DNA from: a virus
Virus record (IMG/VR): IMGVR_UViG_3300021381_000132
Location: 1 to 37,570 of that record
Reading direction: 5' to 3' (one strand)
DNA length: 37,570 nucleotides
How positions within the stretch are numbered: position 1 is the stretch's first letter; every line of letters starts with the position of its first letter. The translations under genes and the position numbers were made by a program. Positions 7,228 to 33,505 of this stretch are shown here, piece by piece. The notes beneath the pieces are model-generated. The model saw only the letters and a program-made list of their open reading frames with translations, was not told where the DNA came from and made no database searches.

Positions 7228-8387
7228 TGCAGCAAATTCAATCAAACCCAGGCGGCAACTTCCTTGCAGGTTTGACGGGTGGGATGCAGGCAGGCCAGAA
7301 TATTCGCCAAGCCAATGATCAGAACGCCCTGCGCAACATCTTTGCCACGCAGAACATTAACGACCCGGCTGTTCAGCAGAAGATTATGGGGCTTGATCCG
7401 CAAGCGGGCATGGCGTTGCAAGACCGAGCATATCAGCGCGAACAGGACACCTATCAGCGCGGACGGCAGGAAGTTGCTGATTCGCGGGCTGAACAGACTT
7501 TCCAAATGAACATCAGGCAAGCCGCTGCGCAAATGTCTGACGCAGAGCGGCAACAGGAAGCGGCCAAGATAGAGCGCGGCATGATGCCCGCTATTCAGTT
7601 TTTCGAGCAAGGCAATCTTCCGGGGTTCAATTCTGTGTTGGAAGCGGCGGGTGAACAGCCTATTGCGTCACTTGATCAGGCTCCGGCTGTTCTGCGTAAG
7701 TACAAGTCGGTATTCGACGCCTTGGTTGATGTTAAGGAGTTCAATGCGGGGCCGGATGCACAGTCACCAGAGGGTAAGCGCGCGGCGGATGCTAAAGCTG
7801 GCCTGCTTGATTTGAATGTCCCGCAGGTTGATTTCGAGACAGAACAGAAGTTTCGTAAGGAATTCTTGGGCATTCCGGCTGTTAAGGCGTTTTCTGAGCA
7901 AGCGCAGGCTTATGATCGGATTATCAATTCCGCGACTGACCCAAGCCCTGCTGGCGATCTGGCATTGATCTTCAACTTCATGAAGGTTCTTGATCCTGGT
8001 TCGGTTGTTCGTGAGAGCGAATTTGAAACGGCGGCGCAGGCAACGGCATGGCTTCAGCAAAGCGAAGAACTTGGCATTAACGTTCCACAGCCTGTTGCGG
8101 GCGCTATTCGCAAGATGGCGTCGGGTCAGAGGCTTGCACCCGCGCAACGTGATGACTTTGTGGGCCGTGCTGGAAATCTTTATGACGGTGCCGAGCGCGG
8201 GTTTATGAACATCAAGTCGCAGTATGAGCAAAAGGCGGAAGACTACAATCTTGACCCTCAACGCAGCTTGATGGACTTCAGACGCCCAAGCGACGCGCCG
8301 CAACCTGCGGCCCCGGTCCAACGCGGTGACGTGCCTGCAAGCCAGCTTTCAGATGAAGACCTCTTGCGCTTATATGGTGTTGAATAA
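7227..8387 (+). CDS. Virion internal / DNA ejection protein (second of three, gp20-like place)
   Basis: The 386-residue protein is Gln/Ala/Asp-rich and largely predicted helical, with dense QxxxR and coiled-coil-like stretches at about 60-125 (LQDRAYQREQDTYQRGRQ). It has no transmembrane segment or catalytic motif. A region near 215-300 (IPAVKAFSEQAQAYDRII, then FIFNFMKVLDPGSVVRE-like) resembles a motif common to T7- and P22-type internal proteins. Its ATG overlaps the previous stop and its stop overlaps the next ATG, so the three genes form a tight ejection cassette. Confidence 0.72.
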   Translation: MQQIQSNPGGNFLAGLTGGMQAGQNIRQANDQNALRNIFATQNINDPAVQQKIMGLDPQAGMALQDRAYQREQDTYQRGRQEVADSRAEQTFQMNIRQAAAQMSDAERQQEAAKIERGMMPAIQFFEQGNLPGFNSVLEAAGEQPIASLDQAPAVLRKYKSVFDALVDVKEFNAGPDAQSPEGKRAADAKAGLLDLNVPQVDFETEQKFRKEFLGIPAVKAFSEQAQAYDRIINSATDPSPAGDLALIFNFMKVLDPGSVVRESEFETAAQATAWLQQSEELGINVPQPVAGAIRKMASGQRLAPAQRDDFVGRAGNLYDGAERGFMNIKSQYEQKAEDYNLDPQRSLMDFRRPSDAPQPAAPVQRGDVPASQLSDEDLLRLYGVE

Positions 8388-10015
8388 TGGCAGATTACAA
8401 TCAGATCATGGACGCGGCCCGAAAGGCCCATAGTGCTGGCGATGCCGAAGGCGCAAAGCGTCTTGTGCAGATGGCCAAGGCGCTGGGCAGTGGCTCGGAT
8501 CAAAAGCAGGCAATGCTTGATCGTGTGGCGTCTGCAAAGGCCGGCACATTGGTAGCGTCACCAGAAAGCCTTGCACGGGCGAACGCCGCTGACCAAATCG
8601 CTTCCCCCGGTATGCCACAGCCAGACACCGCCATGATTCAGTCCCAGATTGACGCCAGCAAAGAGCGCGGCGCAACTGCGGCTGCTTTGATGAATAAGGC
8701 GGGCGAAAGCATGACGCTTGGCCTTGTGGGCGATGAGGCGGCAGCAAAAGCTGACCAGCTTATCGGACGCGGCGGCGGGTATGATGAGCGGCTGAACTTT
8801 TACCGCGATCAGGAGAAGCAACTCGAAACGGATCATCCGCTTATGTCTATGGGGGCCGAAATAGCCCCGGCGTTCCTTCCCGGCGCGGGCGCGGCGGGCG
8901 CTGTTTCCAAACTTAGCACGATTGCGGGCAAAACAGCGGCGGGCGCACTCACGGGCGCGACAGCAGGTGGCATCTATGGGTTTATGGAAGGCGAGGGTGA
9001 CGACAGGCTGCGCAACTCGGCAACTACAGCCATTCTAGGCGGCGTATTGGGGGCGGTTGCGCCAAAGGTCACAGATTTCGCGGCGTCAGTACCGTCACGG
9101 GTTCGCAGCATGTTTATCAAGTCAGCCAAGCGGCCAACAATCGGCGCTCTAAAGGCAACAAAGAATGCGGCATACCGCGCAGTCGATGAGTCCGGCGAGG
9201 TGTTTGACGGTGACACAATGAGCCAGCTTGCAACGCATGTGCGTGGCGTCTTTGACGACGGGAACTATGTTGAAGAAACAGACAACGCGCTAAAGGCAAC
9301 TTTGACGCTTTTGGATCGCAGAGCGGGCAAGCCCACAACTATCACGCAGCTAGACGGCATTCGAAAGAACCTCTGGAAGCGTTATGCCACGGCGAAAGAC
9401 CAGCCACAGATTCTAGACGCAATCGCTTCGATTGATCACGTTATTGACAAGCGCGGCGCAACAAGTGAGCTGATGGATGTGGCCCGCGCGGCTAACTCTC
9501 GTTTTGCCAAGTCTCAACTTCTTGACGACGCATTTACAAAGGCAACAGACCAGACAGCGGCTACTGGATCCGGTGGCAATATCCTGAATAAATACCGTCA
9601 GGCTGTAACCTCGATCATAAACAACGAGCGCAAGGCTAAGTTCTTTTCATCCGGCGAGATTGAAATGATGCGTGAATTTGTCAGGGGAAGCACAAGCGAA
9701 AATATGAAGCGTCTCGTTGGCAAGCTGTCGCCATCTGGTAACGGACTGATGATGGCACTGCACGTAATCGGCGGTGTTGCCTCAAATGGCGCTTCGTTGC
9801 CGCTTATGGCTGTAGGCGCTCTTTCAAAGGGATCCGCTGACAAGTCGGCGATGCGCGGCGCTGAAGCTATACAAGACTTTGTGGCTGGCGTCCCTAAGTT
9901 GGTTCGCCCATCATCTACCGGCGCGGCTCTTGCGACAGGCGCGGTCCCCGCTGTAGAGCAATTGCAAGGCGGCGCGCGAAATATGCTATCCCAAATCCAA
10001 TTAAACCGCCAATGA
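8387..10015 (+). CDS. Virion internal / DNA ejection protein with hydrophobic belt (third, gp16-like place)
   Basis: The 542-residue protein has an amphipathic N-terminal helix region, then a long Gly/Ala-rich hydrophobic belt at about residues 148-220 able to enter membranes, and a helical C-terminal half with a further hydrophobic Gly/Ala patch near 450-475. P22 gp16 is a 609-residue ejected protein that acts at the cytoplasmic membrane, so size, order and the membrane-active belt fit. The 3' end is overlapped by the opposite-strand membrane gene at 9915-10235. No lytic motif is visible; the lysozyme-like activity is on the separate gene at 10297. Confidence 0.7.
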   Translation: MADYNQIMDAARKAHSAGDAEGAKRLVQMAKALGSGSDQKQAMLDRVASAKAGTLVASPESLARANAADQIASPGMPQPDTAMIQSQIDASKERGATAAALMNKAGESMTLGLVGDEAAAKADQLIGRGGGYDERLNFYRDQEKQLETDHPLMSMGAEIAPAFLPGAGAAGAVSKLSTIAGKTAAGALTGATAGGIYGFMEGEGDDRLRNSATTAILGGVLGAVAPKVTDFAASVPSRVRSMFIKSAKRPTIGALKATKNAAYRAVDESGEVFDGDTMSQLATHVRGVFDDGNYVEETDNALKATLTLLDRRAGKPTTITQLDGIRKNLWKRYATAKDQPQILDAIASIDHVIDKRGATSELMDVARAANSRFAKSQLLDDAFTKATDQTAATGSGGNILNKYRQAVTSIINNERKAKFFSSGEIEMMREFVRGSTSENMKRLVGKLSPSGNGLMMALHVIGGVASNGASLPLMAVGALSKGSADKSAMRGAEAIQDFVAGVPKLVRPSSTGAALATGAVPAVEQLQGGARNMLSQIQLNRQ

Positions 10016-25575: not shown

Positions 25576-25626
25576 GCGCGGCCTAGGTTAGCTTCCGAAA
25601 ACTGGTACTCCCCCAGTTGGCCGCGC
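25576..25626 (+). promoter_or_regulatory. Structured leader hairpin before the IbrB-like gene
   Basis: GCGCGGCC (25576-25583) and GGCCGCGC (25619-25626) form a perfect 8-bp outer stem. Inside, ACTGG (25601-25605) and CCAGT (25613-25617) form a second stem. The ribosome site AAGGAG (25643-25648) follows 16 bases later. This looks like a folded 5' leader that could attenuate or gate expression of the downstream cassette. It is not in a coding frame, so conservation would be meaningful. Confidence 0.5.
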
Positions 25627-25654
25627 ATCATAGGGAGACGCCAAGGAGAGCGAT

Positions 25655-26338
25655 ATGTGTTTGCAAGACAGAATAAGAGATATTCTATCCGATATGGAGG
25701 CAATGCCTCTAGACGTTAAGGTCGATTACCTGAATGAGATCAGGGAGGCCCTTCATTCGGCAAGCCCCTTTTCATCTGAGCCAGTAGACTTTGTTCGGTG
25801 GGTTAAAAACGACACCGTTGGCGCTAATGACTACAACCCGAACAGCGTAGCCCCTCCAGAAATGGAACTCCTTAGACTATCCATTGCTTCGGATGGATAT
25901 ACCCAGCCAATAGTTGGGAGCATTGAGAACGGGCGCGTTGAGGTTGTTGACGGGTTCCACCGTCACCGTGTTGGCAAGGAGTGCGTGGACATAACCGAGC
26001 GCGTTCAGGGGTACTTGCCTGTTGTGCAGATCCGGCATGACCGCGAGGGGCGCAACGATAGAATGGCTTCAACCATTCGGCACAACAGGGCTAGAGGAAA
26101 ACACAGTGTTGATGCGATGTCAGATATCGTTGTTGAGCTTAAGCGCCGCAACTGGTCGGACAAGAAAATTGGTAAAGAGCTTGGAATGGACGAAGACGAG
26201 GTTTTGCGTCTTTGCCAGATTACAGGGTTGGCAGAGATGTTTGCTGACAGGGAATTTTCAGAAGCCTGGGAGGCTGGCGGTGTTGATATTGCAGACGTTG
26301 ATGGGCAGGAGTTCGATGATGTCGAGAACCTTGATTGA
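25655..26338 (+). CDS. ParB/Srx-fold protein, IbrB-like
   Basis: The 227-residue product has an N-terminal helical part, then a ParB-N/sulfiredoxin-fold domain (about 58-148). Visible are the SIASDGYTQPIVG strand-helix (76-88), VVDGFHRHRVG (97-107, corresponding to the G-x-x-R nucleotide-binding box of ParB and close to the DGQHR motif of DndB-type proteins) and IRHNRARGKH (141-150). A helix-turn-helix-like part follows (WSDKKIGKELGMDEDEVLRL, 167-186). IbrB proteins have this layout and occur with IbrA, as here. CTPase or nuclease activity is possible; neither is shown. AAGGAG precedes the ATG by 6 bases. Confidence 0.8.
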   Translation: MCLQDRIRDILSDMEAMPLDVKVDYLNEIREALHSASPFSSEPVDFVRWVKNDTVGANDYNPNSVAPPEMELLRLSIASDGYTQPIVGSIENGRVEVVDGFHRHRVGKECVDITERVQGYLPVVQIRHDREGRNDRMASTIRHNRARGKHSVDAMSDIVVELKRRNWSDKKIGKELGMDEDEVLRLCQITGLAEMFADREFSEAWEAGGVDIADVDGQEFDDVENLD

Positions 26339-26726
26339 TCGTTATCACTGCCACTATGAGCAGCTAGAAGAATATAATAACGGGTTATGGCGCAGACGTT
26401 CAGGTGCCGCCCGCCGCGCGGCAATATCCGAGGCAAGACGGTTTATGATGGAAACTGGACGGTTTTCAGAAGCGATGGGAAGGGTTTGTGCCGAGTGGGA
26501 AAATAGCTGTAAGGTAAATTTCACAACGCCTTCAGTAAATCCTATCGCATGGCTAGGGCAGGCAGCGGTTTGCATTGAAACCTCTGTTCCAGAGGAGTGT
26601 ACACGGGCAGCATGGGCAGATCTGCCATTCGAAGCCCAGCAGATGGCAAACTCACATGCAAGACGTCACCTCAATGAATGGCGTCGTGAATTTATAAATC
26701 AGGGGGATTTGTTCAGTGGCGCTTAA
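26316..26726 (+). CDS. Unknown middle gene of the IbrB-IbrA cassette
   Basis: The ATG at 26316 (or 26319; CAGGAG just upstream) gives 136 residues, overlapping the IbrB-like gene by 23 bases and the IbrA-like gene by 11. It is Arg/Ala/Trp-rich and helical, with RRRSGAARRAAISEARRFMM (about 26-45), several cysteines and a conserved-looking end NEWRREFINQGDLFSGA. Tight overlap on both sides argues that it works with them, perhaps as a linker or nucleic-acid-binding subunit. No family recognised. Confidence 0.72.
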   Translation: MMSRTLIDRYHCHYEQLEEYNNGLWRRRSGAARRAAISEARRFMMETGRFSEAMGRVCAEWENSCKVNFTTPSVNPIAWLGQAAVCIETSVPEECTRAAWADLPFEAQQMANSHARRHLNEWRREFINQGDLFSGA

Positions 26727-27960
26727 GGATTATATCGGAATAAACGTATTGGACGCCGCTAACCAGCGCACGCAATGGACGCTAGATAACTTTGAGCGCG
26801 TTTATTGCTCATTCTCTGCGGGGAAGGACAGCACAATCATGCTTCACATCTTGGCTGATGTTGCGCGCAAGGCTGGGCGGAGGGTCGGAGTGCTTCTTGT
26901 GGATCTTGAGGGCCAGTTCGAAATGACAATAGATCACGCGCTTGAGTGCCTTGAAATGTACAAGGATGTTTTCGACGTGTATTGGGTGGCCCTGCCCCTT
27001 CACCTTCGAAACGCCGTTAGCGTATATCAGCCATTTTGGAAGTGCTGGGATCCAGAAGCAGAGGGGGCTTGGATTAGAACGCCACCGGAATTTGCGATCA
27101 CAGATCACAGCCACTTCCCATTTTTTCACGATGGAATGGAGTTTGAAGAATTTGTTCCTCTGTTCGGAGAGTGGTACGCAGAGGGCAAGTCTTGCGCTTG
27201 TATGGTTGGAATTCGCACCGATGAAAGCCTAAACCGCTTCAGAACGATTGTGCAGTCTGAAAAGGTTACAAAAGATGGACATCGCTGGACAACAAAGGTT
27301 ACAGACAGTGTGTTTAACGTTTATCCAATCTATGACTGGAAAACGGCAGACATATGGACTTATCACGCTAAGAATAGAGACAAGCCAGCAAACCCGCTTT
27401 ATGATTACATGAAGAAGGCAGGGGTTCCTTTGGGCCATATGCGTATTTGTCAGCCATACGGCGACGATCAGCGCCGCGGCCTTTGGTTGTTCCATCTGAT
27501 CGAACCCAAAACGTGGTCTCGGGTTGTTGCAAGGGTTAATGGGGCAAACGGTGGCGCGTTGTACGTTCAGGAATGGGGGAATATTAACGGATACCAAAAG
27601 ATAACCAAGCCAGACGGTCACACATGGCAGAGCTTTGCTGAATTGCTTTTGAGGTCTATGCCTCCAGCGTCTCAGACGCACTATGAGAATAAGATACTTC
27701 TTTTCCAAAAATGGCACGTAGAACGTGGATACCATGAAGGCATACCAGATGCGGCTGATTACGATATGGAGCAAGCGCGTCGCGCTCCTTCATGGCGCAG
27801 GATTTGCAAGACGCTCTTGCGTAATGACTACTGGTGCAAGGGGCTTGGTTATACTCAGCATAAGTCGAGGGCATATCAAAAGTATTTGGATCTGATGAAG
27901 CGCCGCAAGGAGGCGTGGGGCATTGGGCAGGGTCAATTGGAGTTCCATTCCGATGCTTGA
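26716..27960 (+). CDS. PP-loop ATPase of the PAPS-reductase-like family, IbrA-like (DUF3440 type)
   Basis: The GTG at 26716 (AGGGGG 9 bases upstream) starts 414 residues. A PP-loop, SAGKDST (34-40), and LLVDLEGQF (60-68) identify an ATP pyrophosphatase of the adenine-nucleotide hydrolase superfamily; VGIRTDESLNRFRTI (about 159-173) is typical of the PAPS-reductase-like branch. The C-terminal reductase motif ECGLH is absent, so sulfonucleotide reduction is unlikely. Instead the C-terminal half (QPYGDDQRRGLWLFH and the end region) is that of IbrA/DUF3440 proteins. Family members adenylate a substrate; which one is unknown. The related DndC acts in DNA phosphorothioation. Confidence 0.85.
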   Translation: MALKDYIGINVLDAANQRTQWTLDNFERVYCSFSAGKDSTIMLHILADVARKAGRRVGVLLVDLEGQFEMTIDHALECLEMYKDVFDVYWVALPLHLRNAVSVYQPFWKCWDPEAEGAWIRTPPEFAITDHSHFPFFHDGMEFEEFVPLFGEWYAEGKSCACMVGIRTDESLNRFRTIVQSEKVTKDGHRWTTKVTDSVFNVYPIYDWKTADIWTYHAKNRDKPANPLYDYMKKAGVPLGHMRICQPYGDDQRRGLWLFHLIEPKTWSRVVARVNGANGGALYVQEWGNINGYQKITKPDGHTWQSFAELLLRSMPPASQTHYENKILLFQKWHVERGYHEGIPDAADYDMEQARRAPSWRRICKTLLRNDYWCKGLGYTQHKSRAYQKYLDLMKRRKEAWGIGQGQLEFHSDA

Positions 27961-32923: not shown

Positions 32924-33505
32924 ATGGCTAATAAAAAATTGCTACCGAAAATAGAGTACATTCGCAAGAGGCTGGAGTATTTCCCGAAAACGGGCCGGAT
33001 AGTCTGGCGTTCACTTGAAGCCTCGGACTTTCCGGGCGGCTATACGTCGCCTGCGATGCAGGCGGTAGACCACAATCGCAGCAGGGCAGGCCGTGACGCA
33101 GAAACCCTAGACCGACGCGGCAAAGGAATAGTCATCAGCGTTGCCGGAATGGTGCTTGAGCCTGCAAGGGTGGCGTGGGCGCTGCATTATGGCGAATGGC
33201 CCGATAACATCGTCGATCATATTGATAGTGATCACAGCAACAACAAGCTGGACAATTTAAGGCTGGCTACCGTTGCCGAGAATAACCGCAACAGGACCAG
33301 CGTAGATGGCACGTCCTCAAAGTATTTGGGTGTGACGAAGGTCGATAAAAAATGGCAGGCGCAGATCAAGCACAACGGAGGTGTAACGTACTTGGGCCGG
33401 TTTGACAGCGAAGAGAGCGCGGCCATTGCTTATGACTGCGCCGCAATCGTGATGCACCGCGAATTTGCAAACCCGAATATTGTCAGGAACCCGTTCTTGA
33501 CGTGA
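32924..33505 (+). CDS. HNH endonuclease with AP2 DNA-binding domain
   Basis: The 193-residue protein has a central HNH motif (DHIDSDHSNNKLDNLRLAT, about 98-116, followed by AENNRN) and a C-terminal AP2/ERF-type domain (YLGVTKVDKKWQAQIKHNGG to ESAAIAYDCAAIVMHREFAN, about 133-183). An N-terminal unit with EYIRKRLEYFPKTGRIVWR (11-29) is also typical. This is a known phage homing-endonuclease build. It lies just before the terminase genes, a usual niche for HNH enzymes that assist packaging in some phages. AGGAGG precedes the ATG. Confidence 0.9.
   Translation: MANKKLLPKIEYIRKRLEYFPKTGRIVWRSLEASDFPGGYTSPAMQAVDHNRSRAGRDAETLDRRGKGIVISVAGMVLEPARVAWALHYGEWPDNIVDHIDSDHSNNKLDNLRLATVAENNRNRTSVDGTSSKYLGVTKVDKKWQAQIKHNGGVTYLGRFDSEESAAIAYDCAAIVMHREFANPNIVRNPFLT

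Follow-up and report, generated by a model that had tools for sequence, protein, structure and literature searches.

A helical protein of an undescribed family as candidate fixed partner of the phage IbrA/IbrB pair, with alternative third components among sampled loci

The middle gene of a three-gene phage cassette appears, on strong evidence from homologous loci, to represent an undescribed protein family, here named MID, which is a fixed partner of the IbrA and IbrB proteins in hundreds of phages. Among the loci sampled, the third component of IbrA/IbrB systems appears to be interchangeable and nearly exclusive, MID being one of several alternatives, a situation not foreseen in the original prediction on this DNA. 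The best explanation of the whole, to which we give a probability of about 0.45, is that IbrA, IbrB and MID form an ATP-dependent enzyme complex that modifies nucleic acid, DNA in the first place.

The cassette was studied in a virus record from IMG/VR (37,570 bases), hereafter the window, i.e. the whole stretch of DNA that was analysed. From its matched structural families (scaffold, major head protein, head closure Hc3, DNA ejection protein, portal and terminase) and the Erf-like annealing protein that it also encodes, the window is by our own reading probably that of a P22-like podophage. Three tightly overlapping genes had been predicted between positions 25655 and 27960, and all three were found as intact ORFs overlapping in series, by 23 nt (ibrB and MID) and 11 nt (MID and ibrA), each with a plausible ribosome-binding site (RBS):

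25655..26338, + strand: ibrB, 227 aa; RBS AAGGAG at 25643
26316..26726, + strand: MID, 136 aa; ATG at 26316; AGGAG at 26307, 4 nt ahead of the ATG
26716..27960, + strand: ibrA, short type, 414 aa; GTG start; AGGGGG at 26701
27660..27920 (approximate), + strand: C-terminal stretch of IbrA resembling the smC protein described below; contains GIPD and APSWRRICKTLLRNDYWCKG

The cassette sits among the early genes of the window. Profile searches placed a resolvase/endonuclease-like ORF upstream of it and an O-like replication protein, an SSB and an HNH-type endonuclease downstream, and neither a methyltransferase nor a cysteine desulfurase nor a base-modifying enzyme was seen adjoining it. The named neighbours of MID cassettes in general are mostly replication and recombination genes, which fits an early action on phage DNA.

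The assignment of the outer genes to the IbrA/IbrB pair was borne out by profile searches. IbrA exceeded the curated cut-offs of both DUF3440 (PF11922, 108.7 bits, cut-off 25) and PAPS_reduct (PF01507, 51.4 bits, cut-off 22.5), and IbrB matched the phage ParB-like family phrog_2159 (E 2e-69). The motifs reported for the two proteins, SAGKDST in the PP-loop of IbrA and VVDGFHRHRVG in IbrB, were both found. The AF2 model of IbrA (pLDDT 86.5) adopts the PAPS-reductase type of the alpha-hydrolase fold, with CysH (6vpu) as best Foldseek match (E 2e-7). The highest VIA-align Z scores were obtained with the PAPS domain of FAD synthase (15.4), APS/PAPS reductases (14-15) and CysD (14.3), in alignments that span residues up to ~263 and thus barely cover the DUF3440 part. 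Among 110 homologues, residues S34, G36-S39, R167, E170, S171, R174, N370 and D371 are invariant, a G-x-R-x-x-E-S-x-x-R motif being conserved alongside the PP-loop. None of these 110 sequences has an invariant cysteine, the most conserved being C245 and C374 (87% each), and the CG[LIV]H motif of the reductases, already reported missing from the window protein, is present in 0/264 non-redundant IbrA homologues. IbrA is therefore not a sulfate reductase, as had been anticipated, and an auxiliary gene of sulfate assimilation was ruled out as the identity of ibrA. The lack of an invariant cysteine also disfavours a thiolation of the DndC type, and all PP-loop thiolases known to us rely on a cysteine or an Fe-S cluster. 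Thiolation by IbrA appears disfavoured as judged from its sequence, though a host protein may deliver the sulfide. CysD and FAD synthase carry out adenylyl transfer without a catalytic cysteine and, by analogy with what is established for these families, would be better models for the chemistry of IbrA.

IbrB remained below the threshold of Pfam ParB_N (16.1 bits, cut-off 26.3), and its profile matched ParB (4umk) and, weakly, SbnI (5uje). Residues D99-G100-x-H102-R103 and R142-H143-N144-R145, within the motifs DGFHR and IRHNRARG, are invariant in 53 homologues. The invariant DGxHR aligns with GERR of ParB/Noc and DGVHR of SbnI, so that the GERR-type motif of canonical ParB partition CTPases is absent and DGxHR is found instead. 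No ParA was named among the genes covered by the searches. The C-terminal part (residues 146-193) gave weak matches to helix-turn-helix (HTH) profiles. E. coli YbdM was recovered as well (5e-85) by an IbrB profile built from the sampled loci.

Searches of Pfam, PHROGs, NCBIfam and PADLOC gave no family match for the window MID, and 121 MID homologues gave only scattered profile matches, the best (5e-5) in 2 members. The AF2 model of MID is all-helical (pLDDT 94.5). Against the PDB, no Foldseek match below E 2.8 and no VIA Z above 4.1 were obtained; no PDB fold relative was thus convincing, which is no proof of a new fold. One structural match was found in BFVD (A0A649V0K8, E 4.5e-6, 30% identity). 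A chance or spurious ORF was ruled out by the homologues and by a median pairwise dN/dS of 0.11 (42 pairs), indicative of purifying selection. MID relatives occurred on more than 570 IMG/VR stretches as against 7 GTDB genome contigs, and no match was found in plasmids. Residue W60 is invariant and E17, N74, G80 and W99 are nearly so; as these residues form no obvious catalytic set, the sequences suggest an adaptor rather than an enzyme. No description of MID or of a third IbrAB component was found in the open-access literature searched.

A failure of the middle gene to accompany ibrA and ibrB elsewhere had been put forward as a refutation, but the outcome was the opposite, the two core genes being found beside it with great regularity. 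Both were present in 80/80 of the best IMG/VR loci found by MID and in 7/7 GTDB genome loci (87/87 for this first set). When the scan was repeated with a seed from the other IbrA clade, 75 further MID loci came up, 72 of which have both genes, the remaining 3 ending at a contig edge; every examined MID locus with a complete cassette on its contig thus has ibrA and ibrB. As each scan took at most the best 80 loci by similarity, these proportions describe the sampled neighbourhood rather than all phages. The gene order varies (ibrB-MID-ibrA, MID-ibrA-ibrB, ibrA-ibrB-MID and ibrA-MID-ibrB), and the linkage of MID to ibrA and ibrB therefore outlasts rearrangement. At 25 loci, 17 of them distinct at about 90% (for instance L091 4239-5396), IbrB and MID form a single uninterrupted polypeptide. 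The proposal that the middle gene encodes a fixed and undescribed partner agrees with these natural fusions and with the lack of a family match, and MID is very probably a true subunit of the IbrA/IbrB system.

Among 264 non-redundant IbrA loci (non-redundancy being defined by shared 4-mers), MID was present in 185, of which 110 have the short type of IbrA, as in the window, and 75 the long type; the MID profiles were built from sampled loci, and very divergent MIDs could escape in the loci scored as having none. Another small protein of ~110-130 aa, named ALT, overlaps the start of ibrA and was present in 43/264 loci. It takes the place of MID in most short-type cassettes that lack the latter, and no locus holds both MID and ALT. 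Searching with ALT recovered 53 loci, each with ibrA adjoining and none with MID; ibrB is present in 52/53, the remaining one ending inside ibrA. ALT represents a second undescribed small family (e.g. L149 3693-4019, L161 3606-4013 and L262-L314), with distant matches to PF07410 (Phage_Gp111) and phrog_26647. No relationship between ALT and MID was found (hhalign probability 0.1%).

A third kind of neighbour is a protein of ~400 aa that we call helicase-like, a label resting on the motifs GTGKT and DES recognised by eye. It occurs in 25/29 long-type loci lacking MID versus 1/75 long-type loci with MID, and in 1/110 short-type MID loci and 2/50 other short-type loci. The label 'DNA helicase' also stands beside IbrA in Streptococcus phage records. 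Homologous proteins are encoded at L006 2758-3996, L318 2276-3511, L316 2342-3511 and L317 1702-2901, genes annotated as 'hypothetical' beside IbrAB in records of Streptococcus, Lactobacillus and Flavobacterium phages. The phages of these three groups share the IbrA/IbrB pair and differ from the window in having the helicase-like protein instead of MID as third gene; several of the Streptococcus and Lactobacillus genes carry the labels IbrA/IbrB or co-activator of prophage gene expression. On a FastTree tree of IbrA, the third-component labels largely follow the clades, with about 14 changes, and the mutual exclusion is thus partly a matter of phylogeny. MID, ALT and the helicase-like protein may nevertheless fill one and the same slot.

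Sister versions of the cassette appear, from their gene content, to be further elaborated, which was likewise unforeseen. Cassettes with a long IbrA and MID add smC, a detached protein of ~75 aa matching the C-terminus of IbrA (the DUF3440 C-domain); the free smC ORFs align to positions ~322-398 of the IbrA profile, and the short IbrA contains smC-like sequence internally. smC was found in 73/75 long-type MID loci, the other two stopping at the contig edge, and was absent from all others of the 264 loci, i.e. from every short-type and every MID-less one. L195 and L196, whose IbrA proteins are closely related, differ in that MID and smC are, as one unit, both present at one locus and both absent from the other. 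The long-type MID cassettes usually also hold a cupin of the ectoine synthase family (PF06339, E 1e-32 to 4e-43), which the window cassette does not have. Further natural fusions are cupin-IbrB (28), MID-smC (2) and smC-IbrB (1). The cupin, seen at L004 3973-4362, L001 3607-3993, L198 3023-3508 and many other long-IbrA loci, lies between or is fused to the phage IbrA and IbrB genes, an odd site for a family of osmolyte enzymes.

A similar arrangement is known from Mycobacterium phage Gaia, where gp103 (PAPS-reductase-like), gp104 (ParB-type) and gp106, a MID homologue with 42% identity over 77 residues, are neighbours. Gaia differs from the window by its long IbrA, by an IbrB with an N-terminal ectoine-synthase cupin, by an extra gene (gp105) and by the detached DUF3440 C-domain (gp107). 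The product of gp105 (L001 4496-4870), a small gene between IbrB and MID, matches no family. Two other neighbours were seen near ibrA at other loci: another PP-loop protein, distinct from IbrA, whose C-terminal stretch (YCSLYDEGFKRLGCIGCPI) contains cysteine, near the IbrA/MID cassette of L008 (about 8000-8600), and a GNAT acetyltransferase gene in the MID-less locus L200 (5220-5642), which overlaps the end of ibrA and lies between ibrA and ibrB.

According to the reading that we prefer, adenylyl transfer with release of pyrophosphate is the probable means by which the PP-loop alpha-hydrolase IbrA activates its substrate. IbrB is in this view a putative NTP-binding protein of the ParB/sulfiredoxin fold, and its helix-turn-helix probably guides the complex to DNA. 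As an obligate subunit of helical structure, MID would lie against IbrB, probably also close to the DUF3440 domain at the C-terminus of IbrA, and would couple or target the reaction from the slot filled elsewhere by ALT or the helicase-like protein. The likeliest product would be a covalent modification of nucleic acid, of phage DNA first, made early in infection. We infer complex formation in the window phage, the adenylyl chemistry, the DNA target and a protective purpose, and DNA modification as the chemistry of the complex has in our estimate a little less than an even chance. The ectoine-synthase cupin of the sister cassettes hints at small-molecule chemistry. A relevant parallel is DpdB, a ParB-like ATPase that serves DpdA in 7-deazaguanine DNA modification (PMC12839542) and is thus likewise paired with a DNA-modifying enzyme, although that enzyme is a TGT and not a PP-loop protein, and no DpdA or DpdC was seen here.

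A broader and rather doubtful extension is that IbrAB-type cassettes constitute a class of phage DNA-modification systems that is modular, widespread and hitherto unrecognised. A PP-loop adenylating enzyme and a ParB/Srx NTPase would then form the constant catalytic core and MID, ALT or the helicase-like protein the swappable targeting subunits, and in some cassettes the cupin would make or bind the added group. Such a chemistry would be cysteine-free and AMP-driven, unlike phosphorothioation, deazaguanine insertion or methylation.

It is unlikely that IbrA, IbrB and MID serve instead to regulate the expression of phage or prophage genes, in which case IbrB would bind DNA via its HTH, IbrA would sense a nucleotide or a sulfated metabolite and MID would adapt the pair to the transcription machinery. 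As PMC7649339 cites Sandt 2002, IbrAB raises the expression of prophage eib genes in E. coli, possibly directly; ybdNM in K-12 is under the control of CitR (PMC9068703), and the weak HTH matches of IbrB would suit a regulator. However, the invariance of the PP-loop and adenylate-binding residues of IbrA suggests catalysis, the cupin and helicase-like partners suit an enzyme system better, and the activation of eib could be a secondary effect of modification. The K-12 proteins YbdN and YbdM represent the same core pair (DUF3440 PP-loop and ParB-like) encoded by adjacent overlapping genes, and differ in having no MID, ALT, smC or cupin nearby, which indicates that the IbrA/IbrB pair can exist alone. 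IbrA and IbrB of the ECOR-9 prophages, compared here without sequence, are the same two core proteins, and a regulatory phenotype is the only published one known to us for them.

Two further targets, each less probable than regulation, have to be weighed against DNA. The complex might modify RNA such as tRNA, counteracting host tRNA cleavage or shifting translation, in the manner of the PP-loop enzymes TilS and TtcA. IbrA shares its fold with TilS/MesJ and the tRNA thiolases, but the Z scores (1ni5, 11.8; 6scy, 11.3) are lower than those of CysD, FAD synthase and the APS/PAPS reductases; moreover, IbrA has no invariant cysteine such as tRNA thiolases need, IbrB is of the ParB type with an HTH-like region, and the window encodes no tRNA. 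Alternatively, and with no better prospects, the substrate might be a free nucleotide or small molecule, the complex inactivating a host immune signal nucleotide or building a modified nucleotide pool. The closest adenylyltransferase folds, those of CysD and FAD synthase, belong to enzymes that use small molecules, the cupin partner comes from the ectoine synthase family, and members of the ParB superfamily have been proposed to degrade nucleotides (PMC10853773); the HTH-like region of IbrB and the helicase-like partner of sister systems nevertheless point to DNA, and the window version is devoid of the cupin.

Phosphorothioation of DNA by a DndC/DndB-like pair, the parallel drawn in the original prediction, is highly improbable. 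The DndC and SspD systems likewise have a PP-loop protein of the PAPS-reductase type, paired for DndC with a ParB-superfamily protein, and IbrA gives a weak partial DndC match (PADLOC, E 5e-5, residues 162-242). Against this, IbrA scores 16.5 bits with the DndC equivalog TIGR03183 (cut-off 290.4) and has no invariant cysteine, whereas DndC carries a cysteine-bound 4Fe-4S centre and a cysteine dyad (PMC10853773), and no Dnd or Ssp partner turned up among the 9 flanking window genes searched against PADLOC. The identity of IbrA with DndC was consequently rejected on the cysteines and the model score.

To our knowledge, IbrA and IbrB have carried the label of prophage co-activators for two decades, with no mechanism attached to it. 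As the core of a system of several parts, with a fixed subunit, fusions that show its wiring and swap-in alternatives, they would offer defined complexes to purify, and Gaia on M. smegmatis would be a tractable phage in which to seek a new nucleic-acid modification. Many phage genes labelled PAPS reductase and deemed auxiliary genes of sulfur metabolism may be misannotated, and both MID and ALT, as undescribed families, merit names and models.

Two additional features of the window were recorded. The Rfam int-alpA RNA (RF02996) matches positions 25576-25638 on the + strand with 36.2 bits (gathering threshold 35.8), and the match stops 16 nt 5' of the ibrB start codon. A role for this RNA as part of the cassette was unsupported, since none of 13 related loci gave a match and, among the fetched loci, a rough pattern for its sequence recovered the window's own copy only. 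Finally, an ORF at positions 32924-33505 shows a partial match to a homing endonuclease (PADLOC HEase, E 9e-6).
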